Positions 50,625 through 58,005 of a DNA stretch of 64,000 nucleotides are shown here, one piece after another. The notes beneath the pieces are model-generated. The model saw nothing but the letters and a program-made list of their open reading frames with translations, had not been told where the DNA came from and made no database searches. Origin of the DNA: Methyloligella sp. GL2. Lineage in GTDB: Bacteria > Pseudomonadota > Alphaproteobacteria > Rhizobiales > Methyloligellaceae. Within the stretch, counting starts at the first letter, position 1. The number at the start of each line of letters is the position of its first letter. Location: NCBI RefSeq assembly GCF_013341275.1, contig NZ_CP054476.1, positions 186,001 through 250,000 on the forward strand. The letters run 5' to 3'. The translations under genes and the position numbers were made by a program.

Positions 50625-53183
50625 ATGACCGAGGCGAGCGGTAAGGCAAGCGATCTTCTCGCCGAATACCGGGCCAAGCGCGATTTCGGCAAGACGCCGG
50701 AGCCCGGACCGGAACGCAAAGCCGACTCCGGCAATAGCTACGTCATCCAGAAACACGCCGCGACCCGCACCCATTTCGATTTCCGCCTGGAGCATGACGG
50801 GGTGCTGAAGAGCTGGGCGGTGACCCGCGGACCCAGCACCGATCCTTCGCAGAAGCGCCTGGCGGTCCGCACCGAAGACCACCCGCTCGCCTATGGCGGC
50901 TTCGAAGGGGTGATCCCTAAGGGCGAATATGGCGGCGGCCCTGTGATGCTTTGGGATCGCGGCAGCTGGGAGCCGATCGGCGATGTCGATAAGGGGCTGA
51001 AGAAGGGCCATCTCGACTTCGTGCTGCATGGCAAGCGCCTGAAGGGCGAGTGGCATCTGGTGCGGATGAAGCCGGATAAGCGCGGGCAGAAGCGCGAGAA
51101 CTGGCTGCTGATCAAGGGCTCCGACGATGCGGCGGAGACAGGCGGCGAGCCGACGGAGCGCTTTGACACGAGCGTCGCCAGCGGCCGCACGATGGACGAG
51201 ATCAAGAACGGCGAGAGCGCGGTGTGGAGCTCCGATCCGTCGAAAACGCCGGGCAAGACTAAGAATAGCGGCGGGAAGAGCGGCGCGAAGAATGGCGGCG
51301 AAAAAGCGCCCAGCCAACGCGCGAGCGCTCCGGATTTCGTCGAACCTCAGCTCGCCACGCTGGTGGACAAGGTGCCCCCCGGCAAAGGCTGGATCCATGA
51401 GGTGAAGTTCGACGGCTACCGCATCGAGGCACGCAAAGACGGCGATCGGGTCACCCTCTATAGCCGCAGCGGCCTGGACTGGACGGCGCGCTTCCCGGCC
51501 ATCGCCAAGGCGTTTTCCAAGCTTTCCTGCAAATCGGCGCTGATCGATGGCGAGGCGGCTTTCGTGCTGCCTTCAGGGCTGACCAGCTTCAAGGCGCTGC
51601 AGGAGCATATCGACACCGACAATCCGGCGATCCGCTATTACGCCTTCGACCTTCTGGCGCTGGACGGCAAGGATCTCCGCAACGAGCCGCTTTCGAAACG
51701 CAAGGCGGCGCTGAAGCAGCTGTTCGCCAAGAAACTGCCGGAGCGGCTGGTCTATTCCGACGATATCGAAGGCGAGGGCGATGTGTTCTTCGCCAAGGCC
51801 TGCGCGGTGGGGCTGGAAGGCATCATGTGCAAGCGGGCCAGTGCGCCGTACCGCTCCGGCCGCTCCAAGAGCTGGCTGAAGGTGAAGTGCAGCCATGAGG
51901 AAGAGTTCGTCATCGGCGGCTATGCCAAATCCAGCGCGCGGGGGCGGCCCTTCGCTTCGCTGCTGCTCGGCACCTATGACGGCGATAGGCTGATCTTCGC
52001 CGGCAAGGTGGGCACCGGATTCGATACCAAGACGCTGAAAGCGCTGGCGGCGAAGTTCAAGCCGCTGGAGCGCAAGACCGCGCCTTTCGAAGAGGTGCCG
52101 ACCGCCGACAGGCGCGATGCGGTGTGGCTCTCCCCGAAGCTGGTCGGCGCGGTTCGCTTCACCGAATGGACACCGGAGGGGCGCCTGCGCCATCCGAGCT
52201 TTCAGGGCTTGCGCGAGGACAAGCCGGCGAAAGAGGTGTTCCGCGACATGGCGGCCAAGGCGTCAGAGGAGAGCGGCAAGATGGCGAAGGATCCGCGTTT
52301 CGACGGGATCGAACTCTCAAGCCCCGACCGGGTGCTCTATCCGGAGATCGGTCTCACCAAGCTGGGCCTCGCCGAATATTACGACAAGGTTCGGGACGCG
52401 ATGCTGCCCTATCTGGTCGACCGGCCGATCAGCCTGGTGCGCTGCCCAGAGGGGCACACGGAAGAGTGCTTCTTCCAGCGCCACGCCATGAAGGGGATGA
52501 GCGCTGCGATAAAGCAAATCGCCATTCCCGGCGGCGAGACGAAGGAGAAGTATCTCTATATCGAGAACGCCGAAGGCCTGTTCGCCCTGGTGCAGATCGG
52601 GGTGCTGGAGATCCACGATTGGGGCGTCTCGACAAAGGCGCTGGATAAGCCGGACCGGCTGGTCTTCGATCTCGATCCGGATGAAGGTCTCTCGCTCGAG
52701 ACGCTGAAAGCGGCCACCATCGAGGTGCGGGATTTCCTCGCCGATCTGGGGCTGAAAAGCTTCCTGAAATCCACCGGCGGCAAGGGTTTTCACGTGGTGG
52801 CGCCGCTCACCCCGAAGGCCGGATGGGACGAGGTGAAGGCATTCTGCAAGGCTGTGGCCGATGCGCTGGTGACCGCGCGCGGCGACCGCTACACCGCCAC
52901 GCTTTCCAAGAGCGCCCGCGAGGGCAAGATCTTCGTCGATTACCTGCGCAATCAGCGCGGCAGCTCGGCCATCGTCAATTTCTCCACCCGGGCGCGGGCG
53001 GGCGCGCCGGTCGCTACGCCGCTGCGCTGGGACGAGCTCAGCGGCCTCAGCCAAGCGGCCGCCTATACGGTTTCGACCCTGCCGCGGCGGCTGGCCAGCC
53101 TGAAAAGCGACCCTTGGGAGGGATTTTTCCAGACGCGGCAGTCGATTAGCAAAAAGGCGCGATCCACGCTCGGCCTCGAATAG
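50625..53183 (+). CDS. ligD: ATP-dependent DNA ligase LigD, PE-ligase-polymerase order
   Basis: 852 residues. Order: 3'-phosphoesterase domain (about 35-165; HAATRTHFDFRLEHDG with metal-binding His and Asp, then EDHPLAYGGFEG), linker rich in Lys/Ser, ATP ligase with adenylated K261 in EVKFDGYR, and C-terminal primase-polymerase with D682 and D684 in DLDPDEG. This is the Pseudomonas-type domain order. With the adjacent Ku it rejoins double-strand breaks. Confidence 0.97.
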   Translation: MTEASGKASDLLAEYRAKRDFGKTPEPGPERKADSGNSYVIQKHAATRTHFDFRLEHDGVLKSWAVTRGPSTDPSQKRLAVRTEDHPLAYGGFEGVIPKGEYGGGPVMLWDRGSWEPIGDVDKGLKKGHLDFVLHGKRLKGEWHLVRMKPDKRGQKRENWLLIKGSDDAAETGGEPTERFDTSVASGRTMDEIKNGESAVWSSDPSKTPGKTKNSGGKSGAKNGGEKAPSQRASAPDFVEPQLATLVDKVPPGKGWIHEVKFDGYRIEARKDGDRVTLYSRSGLDWTARFPAIAKAFSKLSCKSALIDGEAAFVLPSGLTSFKALQEHIDTDNPAIRYYAFDLLALDGKDLRNEPLSKRKAALKQLFAKKLPERLVYSDDIEGEGDVFFAKACAVGLEGIMCKRASAPYRSGRSKSWLKVKCSHEEEFVIGGYAKSSARGRPFASLLLGTYDGDRLIFAGKVGTGFDTKTLKALAAKFKPLERKTAPFEEVPTADRRDAVWLSPKLVGAVRFTEWTPEGRLRHPSFQGLREDKPAKEVFRDMAAKASEESGKMAKDPRFDGIELSSPDRVLYPEIGLTKLGLAEYYDKVRDAMLPYLVDRPISLVRCPEGHTEECFFQRHAMKGMSAAIKQIAIPGGETKEKYLYIENAEGLFALVQIGVLEIHDWGVSTKALDKPDRLVFDLDPDEGLSLETLKAATIEVRDFLADLGLKSFLKSTGGKGFHVVAPLTPKAGWDEVKAFCKAVADALVTARGDRYTATLSKSAREGKIFVDYLRNQRGSSAIVNFSTRARAGAPVATPLRWDELSGLSQAAAYTVSTLPRRLASLKSDPWEGFFQTRQSISKKARSTLGLE

Positions 53184-53244: not shown

Positions 53245-54030
53245 ATGACAGGGTGTTCTGCGTACCGGGCCGCTTGGGCGGCATTTGCCTTGCTGGCCTT
53301 CGGCGTTGCGGCAACGATTGCCGGCTGCTCGATGAGTCCGTTCGGCGCCAGCCGCGGCGAGTGGCGCAGCAAGGGCGAAGCCCAATGCATGGCGAGCGGC
53401 CTGGCCAAGCAAGCCCCCTATATCGTCGAAACCAAAAGCCCCAAGGGCGGCGGCGCCTGCGGCATGGATCATGCGCTGCGCGTCTCGGCGCTGATGGGCG
53501 GACGCGTCAAGGTCAGCCCGGCGGCGACCGTCAACTGCCCGATCACCGCGGCGGTGAACAACTGGGTGCAGAAGTCGGTGCAGCCGGCGGCGATGCGGCG
53601 CTTCGGCCAGCCGGTGGTCGAGATCAAGCAGATGGCCGCCTATTCCTGCCGCACGCGGAACAGCGCCGGCGGCAAGGCCTCCGAGCACGCTTTCGGCAAT
53701 GCCCTCGATATCGGCGGCTTCCGCCTCGCCGACGGCCACGAGATCGTGGTCAAGAAGCATTGGTCGCGGGGAACGGCCTCGGAGCAGGCCTTCCTGCGCG
53801 AGGTCTATAACGGCGCTTGCCAGACCTTCTATACGGTGCTGGGGCCAGGCGGCGACCGCCATCACGGCGATCACATCCATGTCGACCTGCTGGTCTCCAA
53901 TACCGGCAAGAGCGGCAATTACTGCCGCCCGCGCATGCAGCGCATCCCCAACGCGCCGGTCGCCCGCCGGCAGCCGATGGTGATGCAGGCGCCGCGAAGC
54001 GCGGCGAGCTATTCCTTCTCCGGAAATTAG
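53245..54030 (+). CDS. Extensin-like lipoprotein
   Basis: 261 residues. A lipoprotein signal ends in TIAGC (Cys near 28). The rest is the extensin-like C-terminal domain, with SEHAFGNALDIGGF and GDRHHGDHIHVDL, whose His and Asp resemble the zinc sites of D,D-carboxypeptidases (MepA/VanY-like). A role in trimming peptidoglycan is plausible. It is the last host-like gene before the foreign islet. Confidence 0.9.
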   Translation: MTGCSAYRAAWAAFALLAFGVAATIAGCSMSPFGASRGEWRSKGEAQCMASGLAKQAPYIVETKSPKGGGACGMDHALRVSALMGGRVKVSPAATVNCPITAAVNNWVQKSVQPAAMRRFGQPVVEIKQMAAYSCRTRNSAGGKASEHAFGNALDIGGFRLADGHEIVVKKHWSRGTASEQAFLREVYNGACQTFYTVLGPGGDRHHGDHIHVDLLVSNTGKSGNYCRPRMQRIPNAPVARRQPMVMQAPRSAASYSFSGN

Positions 54031-54198
54031 CTAAGAAGACGCTTGCGGCGTCGAATGAATGGGAAAGTGGCCACCGGTCTTTCCGGCACTTGCTGCTCGC
54101 CGAGCTGTCGACCTTCCGCAATGGAACGCAATTCGGTGGCTAGTTGTAACTCGTGATCGGTCCTATAGTTGTCCCTTACGTGTGTCGCTCGAAGACTT

Positions 54199-55536
54199 AT
54201 GCAGAACGCTCCGGCAATCAACTGGACAAATGAATCAGTGAAGGCGTTCGCAAAGAACGCAGACCCGCTTGAAGCAATTGAACGGGCCGCCCGTGCGCTT
54301 GTTCTGAAGGCGAGGGAGAGCGGGTGGGAAGGACCTCCCTTCAATCCGCTCCGCATCGCCGAAATGTTAGACGTGCAAATTGAGGCGAACTCTAGCATCG
54401 CTGACGCTCGCCTAGTCGCAACTGAGAGCGGACCGAAGATCGAGTTCAATCCCCAACAACCACGCGAGCGTGTCCGATTTTCGATCGCTCACGAAGTAGC
54501 GCACATGCTCTTTCCAGATTGGCACGACCAAATTCGGAATCGCGGCGGGCAGAAAGAGATTGCGGACGACTGGCAGCTCGAAATGCTCTGCAATCTGGCA
54601 GCGTCCGAGTTCGTCCTGCCCATCGGTAGCTTGTCATCGGCATCAACGGTACCCTCGATTGAAGACCTGATGCGCCAGCGTCGCGAATACGATGTTTCGG
54701 CGGAGGCATTTCTTATTCGACTTGCCAAGATCTCCACACAGCCTATCGGCGTGTTCTTCGCGTCACCGCATCAATCAGGCAAGGCCGAGCGCCGCTATAC
54801 GGTTAACTATTTTGTTGGTTCTCCCACTGCCCCAAAGGCTCAGATATCTGGGACGGATGTTCCAGCCAGCAGTGTCATTCATAGCTGTACGGCTATTGGA
54901 TACACGGATCGTTCGGTAGAGAGCTGGGTAATCGGTTCACCGACGCAGATCGAATGCGTTGGAATTCCCGCCTACCCCGGTAACGTCTATCCGCGCGTCG
55001 CCGGACTAGTCAGGTTTGACCGAGCGCAAGTAGACCTGAAGCCAATAAGAATTCTCCACGGCAATATCCTTGAGCCTCGAAACGGCGGGCAGAAAATCAT
55101 CTGTCAACTGGTGAACGACAAGGCTGGTACGTGGGGGGGCGGTGTGGCGCGGAAGATGGCCGGCCGCTTCCCAGATGCTGAGGTCCAATTTAGGGAACAA
55201 ATTGTTCATCTTCCCCGCAGCGAACGGCTTGGCCGAGCGATATTCTCGCAGGCGAGTGACGAAATCACTATTGCGAGCTTAATCGCGCAGGAAGGACATG
55301 GGCCGTCCCTCTTTCCACGAATCCGTTACTCTGCCCTGAAGAACTGTCTTGAAGCAGTAACACAGCGAGCCAAGGAAACCGGGGCGACTGTCCATATGCC
55401 ACGAATAGGTACGGGATCTGCCGGTGGTGATTGGGGGACAGTTGAAGAGATGCTTGACGACATAATGGTGCGAGCAGGAGTGTTCGTTACGGTCTACGAT
55501 CCACCGCCCAGACGACCTCAACTAGAGTTATTTTGA
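54199..55536 (+). CDS. ImmA/IrrE-type zinc peptidase fused to a macro domain
   Basis: 445 residues. An N-terminal ImmA/IrrE-like domain (about 48-190) has HEVAH at 98-102 and third ligand E128 in a LEMLCNLAASEFVLP helix. Between about 195 and 280 is a beta-rich part common to such proteins. From about 283 to 435 there is a macro domain of TARG1/DarG appearance: HGNIL, QLVNDKAGTWGGGVARKM, and MPRIGTGSAGGDWGTVEE. The first should cleave a repressor or partner; the second should bind or remove ADP-ribose. The stop TGA abuts the next start (TGATTG). A TTG at 54169 could add ten residues. First gene of the islet operon. Confidence 0.88.
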   Translation: MQNAPAINWTNESVKAFAKNADPLEAIERAARALVLKARESGWEGPPFNPLRIAEMLDVQIEANSSIADARLVATESGPKIEFNPQQPRERVRFSIAHEVAHMLFPDWHDQIRNRGGQKEIADDWQLEMLCNLAASEFVLPIGSLSSASTVPSIEDLMRQRREYDVSAEAFLIRLAKISTQPIGVFFASPHQSGKAERRYTVNYFVGSPTAPKAQISGTDVPASSVIHSCTAIGYTDRSVESWVIGSPTQIECVGIPAYPGNVYPRVAGLVRFDRAQVDLKPIRILHGNILEPRNGGQKIICQLVNDKAGTWGGGVARKMAGRFPDAEVQFREQIVHLPRSERLGRAIFSQASDEITIASLIAQEGHGPSLFPRIRYSALKNCLEAVTQRAKETGATVHMPRIGTGSAGGDWGTVEEMLDDIMVRAGVFVTVYDPPPRRPQLELF

Positions 55537-57168
55537 TTGGCGAACCGACACGCTGCTCTCCGGATTGTTTTAGTGTCTGGCCCGATTTGCTCTGGCAAAT
55601 CGGCGCTTGTCCGACAATTGACCGAAAAGCACCATGCCGAAATCATCAAAACAAAAGAATTGATACTGAAGAAAGCTCCGAAAACGAAACCCGCGCGCCG
55701 GGCATTGCAGTTGGCAGGGCAGCGACTCGACAATGCCGACGGCGGTGCTTGGGTGGGAGAAGCACTTCAGAGGGTCGTGGACATTTCTTCAAAGGGACAG
55801 ACGCCCAAAGGCTTGTACGTTGTAGATTCAGTCCGCATTCCCGGCCAGATAGCGGCAATTCGGAAGGCATATGGCGCGGAAGTCCATCACATCCATCTCA
55901 CGGCGACTCCCAAGGAACTTCGCAGGCGTTATGGGTGCCGCCAGCGAGAAGAAGACGAGACCGTCGGTTACGATGCATTAAAGCGGAACCGCACTGAGCG
56001 AGAGATAGAAAAGCTCGCGGATATTGCGGATGTCGTCGTTGCTACGGACAAGTGCAGTGAAGAAGCGGTTCTTGTTCGCGCTACCGCGCTTCTGAACCTT
56101 TATCCGCGTTCGAATGACGCACTCGTCGATGTGCTGATTGGCGGTCAGTACGGCAGTGAAGGGAAGGGAAATATCGTTGGGCACATTGCACCCGAGTACG
56201 ATCTGTTAATCCGGGTGGGCGGACCAAACGCGGGCCACCAAGTCTATGCCGAACCGGATCCAGAAAAATACTATCATCTTCCTTCTGGCACGCGACGCGC
56301 CCCCAACGCGCAACTGTTGTTGGGTCCAGGTGCGGTCATCTTTCCTCCGAAGCTCCTGGAAGAGATTGCGGCTCATAAGATTTCTACGGATCGCCTAACC
56401 ATCGACGCTCAAGCCATGATCATTACCGATGATGACCAGAAAGAGGAGGAGAAACGCTTCAAGAGCATAAGTTCGACCGCCCAAGGCGTTGGCATCGCAT
56501 CGGCCCGAAAGATGACTGGTCGGTCTGCGTATAAAGAGAAGAAAGCACAGTTCCTAGCCAAGGATTGTCCCGACCTGAAACCGTATATCGGAAACGCCCG
56601 GAAGGTGATTGCTGATGCAATTGTGGAGGGGAAACGGATACTGCTTGAGGGTACTCAGGGTACGTCGCTGAGCCTGCACCATGGACAGTACCCCCATGTG
56701 ACGACCCGCGATACTACGGTTTCTGGATGTCTTGCTGATGCAGGGATCGCTCCCTCGAACGTGCGTAAAGTTATCATGGTCTGTCGCACGTACCCAATCA
56801 GAGTCGGGGGGCCATCAGGGGAGATGGCGTACGAATTGACGATGGAAGACATTCATAAGCGAAGCGGTATCCCCTTGGACCAGCTTAAGCGAACGGAAAC
56901 GACGACCACAACCAACCGCGAGCGCCGAATTGCCGAGTTTGATTGGGTTCAATTCAAAGATTCAGTACAGCTAAATGGGCCGACGGATATCGCTCTCACC
57001 TTCGTCGACTATTTTGATTTTAAGAATCGGGAAGCGTACCGATTCGAGCAGTTGACCCCTGAAACGATCAGCTTCGTCGAAGAAATCGAACGGGTCTCCG
57101 GGAGGCCGGTTTCGCTACTGTCGACCGATTTCAACTGGCGGAACATTATCGACCGGAGAGCGTGGTGA
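55537..57168 (+). CDS. P-loop nucleotide-kinase-like domain fused to PurZ/PurA-like adenylosuccinate synthetase
   Basis: 543 residues. Residues 1-190 are a P-loop NTPase like dNMP or cytidylate kinases: Walker A GPICSGKS (15-22), then LYVVDSVRIPGQIAAIR and a Arg-rich lid (RRRYGCRQREED). Residues 195-543 are an adenylosuccinate synthetase. The catalytic loop, normally GDEGKG, reads GSEGKG (S207 for Asp), and GGHNAGH reads GGPNAGH (P230 for His). Other PurA landmarks remain: EGTQGTSLSLHHGQYPHVT and YPIRVGGPSGE. These two changes are those I recall for phage PurZ, which uses dGMP. Start TTG directly follows the previous stop. Confidence 0.9.
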   Translation: MANRHAALRIVLVSGPICSGKSALVRQLTEKHHAEIIKTKELILKKAPKTKPARRALQLAGQRLDNADGGAWVGEALQRVVDISSKGQTPKGLYVVDSVRIPGQIAAIRKAYGAEVHHIHLTATPKELRRRYGCRQREEDETVGYDALKRNRTEREIEKLADIADVVVATDKCSEEAVLVRATALLNLYPRSNDALVDVLIGGQYGSEGKGNIVGHIAPEYDLLIRVGGPNAGHQVYAEPDPEKYYHLPSGTRRAPNAQLLLGPGAVIFPPKLLEEIAAHKISTDRLTIDAQAMIITDDDQKEEEKRFKSISSTAQGVGIASARKMTGRSAYKEKKAQFLAKDCPDLKPYIGNARKVIADAIVEGKRILLEGTQGTSLSLHHGQYPHVTTRDTTVSGCLADAGIAPSNVRKVIMVCRTYPIRVGGPSGEMAYELTMEDIHKRSGIPLDQLKRTETTTTTNRERRIAEFDWVQFKDSVQLNGPTDIALTFVDYFDFKNREAYRFEQLTPETISFVEEIERVSGRPVSLLSTDFNWRNIIDRRAW

Positions 57169-57833
57169 CCGAAGAGGAACTTGAAGAGCTGATCGCCGAT
57201 TGTCCAACGCTCTATCACATGGCCGAGCGAGGATCATGGGCATCCATTAAGGAGCGAGGCTTACTTAGCACGTCGGCACTTTTGGACCTTTACGCTGTTC
57301 AAGAACCTCTACGAAGCGGGATCGAGAGGCAGCACCGCCCATGTGGCGTTGGACTTCAGGCGAGTGGGTTGCCGCGTGCTGTTGTGCGCGATCAGATTCC
57401 GATGAGCGATGCGGGGCTCAAGCGGTGCCTGCCAGGGCATCTAACCCCGGCGGACTGGTACGGGTTGTTGAACGCAAAAGCCTTCTTTTGGTTGACGGAA
57501 GGCCGATTGCACAAGTTAACCGGCGCCAAGGCGTACCGGGACCGAGAGCACGACGTACTTGAGGTAGACACGCGTTCGCTGATCGAAGCTCACCGGGACG
57601 CCATATGGCTTTGTCCGATGAACAGTGGCTGCACAAAACCTATGCCGCATCCCAGAGATGAGTCGACCTTCGCTCGGATTTCGGACTATCCGTACGAATA
57701 CTGGCGCGGGAAGCGATCCAAGGGCGAACGTACGGTCGAGCTTGCTGTAGATTACTCTGTGCCGGATATCCGCGATCACGTCAGGCGAGTGGTCGTCAAA
57801 CAGGGCGACGTTGTCGTTAGTGTCATCGAGTAG
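57165..57833 (+). CDS. DUF7002-like protein, possible DarT-type ADP-ribosyltransferase
   Basis: 222 residues (GTG at 57165; GTG at 57162 also possible), overlapping the previous stop. It opens with LYHMAERGSWASIKERGLLST, the His-then-GLL pattern seen at the start of DarT and related ADP-ribosyltransferase folds. Later blocks are LLNAKAFFWLTEGRLHKL and REHDVLEVDTRSL. I believe the family is catalogued as DUF7002, function unknown. Ribosome site GGAGAG. With the macro-domain gene two upstream it could form a toxin/antitoxin-like pair; this is inferred, and the catalytic residues cannot be confirmed by eye. Confidence 0.82.
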   Translation: MTEEELEELIADCPTLYHMAERGSWASIKERGLLSTSALLDLYAVQEPLRSGIERQHRPCGVGLQASGLPRAVVRDQIPMSDAGLKRCLPGHLTPADWYGLLNAKAFFWLTEGRLHKLTGAKAYRDREHDVLEVDTRSLIEAHRDAIWLCPMNSGCTKPMPHPRDESTFARISDYPYEYWRGKRSKGERTVELAVDYSVPDIRDHVRRVVVKQGDVVVSVIE

Positions 57834-57929
57834 CAGACGCCACTAACATATTATGAGGTTGGCGACGGCTCTCGGATCGTATGGACCACCGGTCATCTGC
57901 GCACTTTGACTTCCTCGGGCTGGGAAAAG

Positions 57930-58005
57930 TGGTGCCGCTTGCGTGACTCGAACACGCGACCCCATCATTACGAATGATGTGCTCTACCAACTGAGCTAAA
58001 GCGGC
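57930..58005 (-). tRNA. tRNA-Thr (anticodon CGT)
   Basis: 76-base cloverleaf on the minus strand with encoded CCA. Acceptor stem GCCGCTT/AAGCGGC; anticodon stem CATCA/TGATG around TTCGTAA gives CGT, reading ACG. The 3' end points at the islet, which begins at once on the other side. Confidence 0.97.

Follow-up and report, generated by a model that had tools for sequence, protein, structure and literature searches.

A mobile three-gene operon combining a peptidase-macrodomain fusion, a kinase-PurZ-like fusion, and a DUF7002 protein as a candidate defense-type system in Methyloligella

The window analyzed in this study, a stretch of 64,000 nucleotides from Methyloligella sp. GL2 (NZ_CP054476.1, positions 186,001 to 250,000), contains three genes on the plus strand that we designated A (54199 to 55536), B (55537 to 57168), and C (57162 to 57833). 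We found that this triplet is a conserved, coevolving, and mobile unit. Its first product is a fusion of an M78 peptidase and a macrodomain that retains catalytic residues of both, the second joins a P-loop domain to a synthetase carrying the serine of PurZ enzymes, and the third, a DUF7002 protein, has a predicted fold that resembles the ADP-ribosyltransferase (ART) DarT. We tentatively favor, with rather less than even confidence, a reading of the unit as a horizontally moving defense-type operon in which C is the effector, A restrains it or erases its marks, and B acts as the producer or sensor of a 2-aminopurine nucleotide.

The A-B-C triplet recurred in Sphingomonas sp. Leaf20 (L004), a Binatota metagenome-assembled genome (L005), genomes of the same class (L027 and L028) and of the same order (L033), and two phage contigs (L042 and L043), with protein identities to the window copies of about 53 to 80%. 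For each of the three genes, the ratio of nonsynonymous to synonymous substitution rates (dN/dS) was between 0.04 and 0.09 in pairs with unsaturated dS, indicating purifying selection. Because homologous triplets exist elsewhere and each gene shows such low dN/dS values, the tight coupling of the three genes is more than chance. Distance matrices between loci were correlated in Mantel tests, with r values of 0.98, 0.96, and 0.95 for A-B, A-C, and B-C, respectively. Full- or near-full-length A was present in three genomes of a class sample of 289, each time together with C, and a fourth genome of that sample contained a broken A remnant. The sequence-only reading had named as its own risk that the genes might not co-occur elsewhere; instead, the triplet recurs, coevolves, and lies near genes for restriction-modification, for phage restriction by an adenosine deaminase acting on RNA (RADAR), and for candidate defense systems. 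No near matches of the islet genes were found in Escherichia coli genomes, and the annotated phage collection contained neither a full-length B fusion nor C.

DUF7002 was detected above the cut-off in 12 genomes across three surveys. B adjoined C in all seven genomes with strong DUF7002 matches (E < 1e-60) and in none of the remaining five. Full-length B also shared records with C on eight plasmids, which belong to Rhizobium, Agrobacterium, Sinorhizobium, and Methylobacterium. In addition to the triplet, referred to as subtype I, a second form (subtype II) was observed that consists of B and C without A. Here, the pair adjoins a conserved protein of about 455 amino acids in seven of seven loci and an HD protein in six of them, the latter matching phage deoxynucleoside monophosphate (dNMP) phosphatases (phrog_318, E 7e-63). 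The partner of about 455 amino acids matched nothing in Pfam or NCBIfam and nothing convincingly in the PDB. The two types each formed a single group in the B tree (100/99). Because subtype II keeps B and C without A, B-C is the core of the system and A is a subtype-specific partner.

Copies of the unit were found on plasmids, three of the four read being typed as conjugative (L006 to L008), and on temperate-phage or prophage contigs (L041, L042, and L047). The L033 copy lies near type IV secretion genes, according to a reading of the flanking proteins. With regard to defense genes, the triplet of L005 is flanked by the type I restriction genes hsdS and hsdR, one on each side, that of L027 lies near hsdR and a PDC-S06 gene, and that of L043 lies near hsdM, hsdS, and hsdR. 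PDC-M30 gene pairs occur near the L033 and L029 copies, and the RADAR genes RdrA and RdrB are located upstream of the sister form in L007.

Some variation in gene content was noticed around these copies. On the phage contig L047 (5989-8884), which carries tail genes, a separate kinase-domain gene directly precedes the genes for the kinase-PurZ fusion and DUF7002; these are followed by a DUF3644 gene, and a weak DUF3644-like gene is found at the same place in L004. A peptidase-like gene encoding about 380 amino acids (weak matches to M48/M78) lies directly 3' of the DUF7002 gene in L042 (8273-9430) and L033 (8692-9816), and may represent an accessory fourth gene.

The sole Pfam match of C was DUF7002 (PF22531, E 2e-70). 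The Pfam search yielded no match to the DarT family (PF14487), and a profile search of the PDB reached the DarT1 structure 8baq only at an E value of 0.29. A different picture emerged from an AlphaFold2 model of C, which was built from seven sequences and had a mean predicted local distance difference test score (pLDDT) of 86.5. Its six best PDB matches by Foldseek were all DarT proteins (probability, 0.97 to 1.00), with DarT1 (8baq) ranking highest (E 1.3e-3; probability, 1.00), and ART-fold proteins accounted for nearly all of the top 50 matches. Structures of Tpt1/KptA were also matched, far below DarT. Residues His19, Ile29, Gly33, Leu34, Pro80, Asn154, Gly156, Arg165, and Glu193 were invariant in 21 relatives of C, including those encoded by solo genes, whereas Arg51 was kept in 90% of them and Met81 was kept in the core group. 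DarT1 modifies guanine by means of Arg52, Met71, Asn104, and Glu152 (PMC11543638). As a lead, the conserved residues of C may correspond to this active site. We conclude that C has a predicted DarT-like ART fold and does not belong to the DarT family. Because neither hhalign nor the PDB profile search found a significant sequence link, the kinship is claimed at the level of the fold only. The likeness to DarT that had been proposed from the sequence alone therefore holds for the fold and not for the sequence, and the proposal that the third gene attacks with ADP-ribose gained support insofar as its product is predicted to be an ART.

Gene A encodes a product with Pfam matches to Peptidase_M78 (E 5e-6) and Macro (E 7e-6). 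Its peptidase is of the IrrE/CapP-like kind, with the zinc-peptidase motif HEVAH at residues 98 to 102 and a match of residues 40 to 232 to the CapP model of PADLOC (E 3e-16). The C-terminal macrodomain, at about residues 281 to 436, is of the SCO6735/ALC1 type and has SCO6735 as its closest solved structure (PDB 5e3b, E 4e-21). Using a numbering of SCO6735 anchored by the Gln85-Lys89-Lys93 spacing (QHGMKTGSK), Gln364 of A was assigned to the catalytic Gln85, which occupies the position of TARG1 Lys84; it was invariant in six A proteins, and Lys89 was not kept. SCO6735 strips thymidine-linked ADP-ribose from DNA and requires Gln85 to do so (PMC9411070). By analogy with this nearest characterized relative, the macrodomain of A is supported as a probable ADP-ribose eraser. 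Of the protecting or sensing role previously suggested for the first gene, the eraser function was thus strengthened, but a role as an obligatory antitoxin was ruled out, since subtype II has C without A.

Gene B matches AAA_33 (E 5e-7) and Adenylsucc_synt (E 4e-54) in Pfam, and its match to the NCBIfam PurZ model (E 3e-58) fell below the curated cut-off. A P-loop domain resembling nucleoside monophosphate (NMP) kinases, at about residues 1 to 190, is followed by a PurZ-like synthetase at about residues 195 to 543. The AlphaFold2 model of the kinase half (pLDDT of 89) was nearest in Foldseek to the adenylate-kinase-related, AdkA-like structure 3lw7 (template modeling score [TM] of 0.71), and this domain matches the PADLOC model of an anti-phage dCTP deaminase (E 4e-7). 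The synthetase contains the motifs GGPNAGH and GGQYGSEGKG, in the latter of which Ser replaces Asp13 of PurA; GSEGKG was present in all B proteins aligned. A 2026 study reported the Asp13-to-Ser change in all phage PurZ enzymes that it examined (PMC12884076). In the tree, B forms a kinase-fusion clade of its own (100/99) apart from PurA, phiVC8 PurZ, and Pumancara PurZ, and lies outside the sampled phage PurZ and PurZ0 groups, with the root unresolved. "PurZ-like" is the safe name for the enzyme, because, among solved proteins, an archaeal PurA is nearest to it in sequence. An identity as ordinary PurA was ruled out by the Ser change and the tree, and the genome has a separate PurA. The PurZ-type serine supports B as a probable purine-altering enzyme, in line with the earlier suggestion that the second gene makes an altered purine nucleotide.

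The B fusion also occurs without C on four phage contigs, adjoining a DNA polymerase A gene in L045 and L046 and an NDT-MazG fusion in L044 and L048, which in L048 follows B at a spacing of one base. Both DNA polymerase A and NDT-MazG are gene types known from 2-aminoadenine phages, and we infer that these four phages have Z genomes. The serine in this viral set is partly a product of selection, because the patterns used to retrieve viral B proteins mostly contain GSE.

Two further purine-related clusters were noticed on plasmids. In Sinorhizobium medicae (L012:5296-8057), genes for an HD dNMP-phosphatase-like protein, a PurZ-like protein of the Ser type with no kinase domain, and a dCTP-deaminase-like protein lie side by side. 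This is a second PurZ-like cluster in bacteria, and it lacks DUF7002. In Rhizobium leguminosarum (L013:5447-11701), genes for FolE, a PurA-like protein, PurB, QueE, IMP dehydrogenase, a nitrile hydratase subunit, and QueC occur together in what looks like a 7-deazapurine nucleoside pathway.

According to the defense reading that we favor, C would use NAD+ to place ADP-ribose on a nucleic acid or nucleotide in the fashion of DarT, and its action would halt replication in infected cells. The SCO6735-type macrodomain of A would remove the ADP-ribose and so restrain C, while the IrrE/CapP-like peptidase would switch the system upon a phage or DNA damage cue. From dGMP, the level of which is expected to rise while host DNA is being broken down by a phage, B would form a 2-aminoadenine-type nucleotide; it would also phosphorylate a nucleotide. 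The product of B would be the most likely trigger or target of C, and its synthesis would additionally drain the dG pool. As a matter of speculation, a guanine-type target of C would fit the 2-amino group that dGMP and 2-aminoadenine have in common. In a bolder version, which we estimate to be rather doubtful, bacteria and temperate phages would have domesticated the type of enzyme that produces the DNA letter 2-aminoadenine. The modified purine nucleotide would act in immunity as a trigger, a poison, or a target, with DUF7002 as a new DarT-like ART family reading it and the peptidase-macrodomain eraser holding it in check, which would amount to immunity based on modified-base nucleotides.

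Several observations weigh against the defense reading. The chief doubts come from subtype II, which is without the macrodomain and was represented by B-C lacking A at each of the four fully read plasmid loci and also in three genomes, and from solo DUF7002 genes. Neither A nor B adjoins certain distant DUF7002 genes, and two species of one genus share such a locus beside a Fur-like regulator gene (L036:7258-7899; L037 near 7523), an arrangement that is ill-suited to a dangerous toxin and suggests that some DUF7002 proteins are not toxins. The link between the product of B and C draws solely on adjacency and coevolution. Sequence kinship of C with DarT was rejected by hhalign against four DarT proteins (E 0.036, probability 1.4%), and the Foldseek comparison of C with DarT reaches only an E value of about 1e-3 and a TM of about 0.43. 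Lastly, the defense neighbors are proteins hand-picked by eye, without a matched background.

Since B and C form the invariant core, the effector might be B instead of C. It would deplete dGMP and dGTP or poison DNA synthesis with Z-type nucleotides, comparable to the dCTP deaminase and dGTPase defenses that drain nucleotide pools, with C regulating or ADP-ribosylating B and with A or the HD protein tuning the response. The dNMP-phosphatase-like HD protein (phrog_318) added in subtype II, the match of the kinase domain to the anti-phage dCTP deaminase model, and the toxicity of coexpressed S-2L Z genes in E. coli (PMC8342488) agree with this explanation. However, it leaves the SCO6735-type macrodomain unexplained, and the phage contigs carry the fusion beside replication genes, where it is apparently an aid and not a poison; we consider a B effector unlikely. 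The same phage neighborhoods, in which B homologues adjoin DNA polymerase A and NDT-MazG genes, together with the presence of copies on phages and plasmids, would suit an operon that serves the DNA of its own carrier, phage or plasmid, by producing 2-aminoadenine or one of its derivatives, as a counter-restriction device rather than a host defense. Among the loci read on chromosomes, plasmids, and prophages, though, no polymerase, MazZ, or NDT gene was seen beside B, C being there instead, and some copies sit within restriction loci, leaving this explanation with a small chance.

A plain DarTG-like toxin-antitoxin pair, with C as toxin, A as antitoxin, and B as a passenger, would account for the occurrence of an ART fold and a macrodomain eraser within one operon. 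It is nevertheless improbable, given that the nearest relatives of C always adjoin B and not always A, and that B and C coevolve as tightly as A and C. Very improbable, finally, is a module for RNA or nucleotide repair under stress in which C acts as an RNA 2'-phosphotransferase-like or other nontoxic ART-fold enzyme. Tpt1/KptA appears among the fold matches of C and solo DUF7002 genes exist, but DarT ranks far above Tpt1, and C was not seen together with genes for an RNA ligase or a nuclease.

Compared to characterized systems, the operon resembles DarTG1 and DarTG2, in which DarT is paired with a NADAR protein or the DarG macrodomain, by having an ART-fold protein, a macrodomain nearest to a DNA-ADP-ribose hydrolase, and defense genes nearby. 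It differs in that C is not DarT by sequence, the kinase-PurZ gene lies in between, and the macrodomain forms one protein with a peptidase in subtype I and is missing from subtype II. B shares the PurA fold with the Asp-to-Ser change with PurZ of the phage Z-genome cassettes (phiVC8 and S-2L), and phage fusions lie by DNA polymerase A or NDT-MazG. Unlike phage PurZ, it is fused to an NMP-kinase-like domain, falls in its own clade, and is paired with DUF7002 in bacteria. With CapH/CapP of cyclic oligonucleotide-based antiphage signaling systems (CBASS), the operon has in common an M78 peptidase with HExxH and a match to the CapP model, but neither a CapH-like repressor nor a CBASS cyclase is present in the islet, and the peptidase is fused to a macrodomain. 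A parallel in design is possible with DcdV, the anti-phage dCTP deaminase, as B likewise combines a P-loop kinase-like domain with a nucleotide-altering enzyme, which is a PurZ-like synthetase and not a deaminase. The macrodomain of A is closest to 5e3b among SCO6735/ALC1-like proteins and keeps the catalytic Gln; unlike SCO6735, it is part of a peptidase fusion in a three-gene operon and lacks Lys89.

In agreement with the sequence-only reading, we found no published description of a system with this set of domains in a literature search from which subscription journals were mostly absent. Within that search, in which absence is not proof, DUF7002 appeared in no paper, no paper united adenylosuccinate synthetase, anti-phage activity, and a macro domain, and the accessible portions of the literature on PurZ and defense did not describe this gene set. 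PADLOC has no model for the synthetase of B or for C. The parts belong to known kinds, namely, ART/macrodomain conflict systems and nucleotide-pool defense, and there is a real chance that the system is categorically new. If the defense reading is correct, a PurZ-like enzyme would join the nucleotide weapons of bacterial immunity, the chemistry of Z-genome phages would be linked with ADP-ribosylation defense, and DUF7002 would gain a fold and a testable role. As a compact module of 3.6 kb present in at least two phyla, the operon is suited to a standard phage challenge test.

The three genes occupy a low-GC, acquired islet (54031 to 57929; no strand assigned) between an extensin-like gene that ends at 54030 and tRNA-Thr(CGT) on the minus strand (57930 to 58005). 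The GC fraction is 0.54 to 0.56 over 54 to 58 kb, compared to 0.60 to 0.70 elsewhere in the window. B starts with TTG immediately 3' of the A stop codon, and C starts with GTG and overlaps B by 7 nucleotides. The weak start codon at the tight A/B junction is kept in close relatives (TTG or GTG; CTG in L042). Coordinates, GC content, and the tRNA all confirmed the previously described operon of adjoining and overlapping genes in a low-GC islet. A scan for promoters returned a single sigma-70-like site, located within B, and shuffled sequences gave more. No integrase was found within the islet, and an insertion scar was rejected, as the islet contains no repeat of at least 12 bp of the tRNA-Thr sequence. 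At the same site, a congener (G289) carries genes for a diacylglycerol-kinase-like and an autotransporter-like protein instead of an empty site, so that the precise boundaries of the islet are not defined. No further defense gene adjoining the islet was identified in the window. A complete gene for DNA ligase D, of nonhomologous end joining, is located just upstream of the islet at positions 50625 to 53183.

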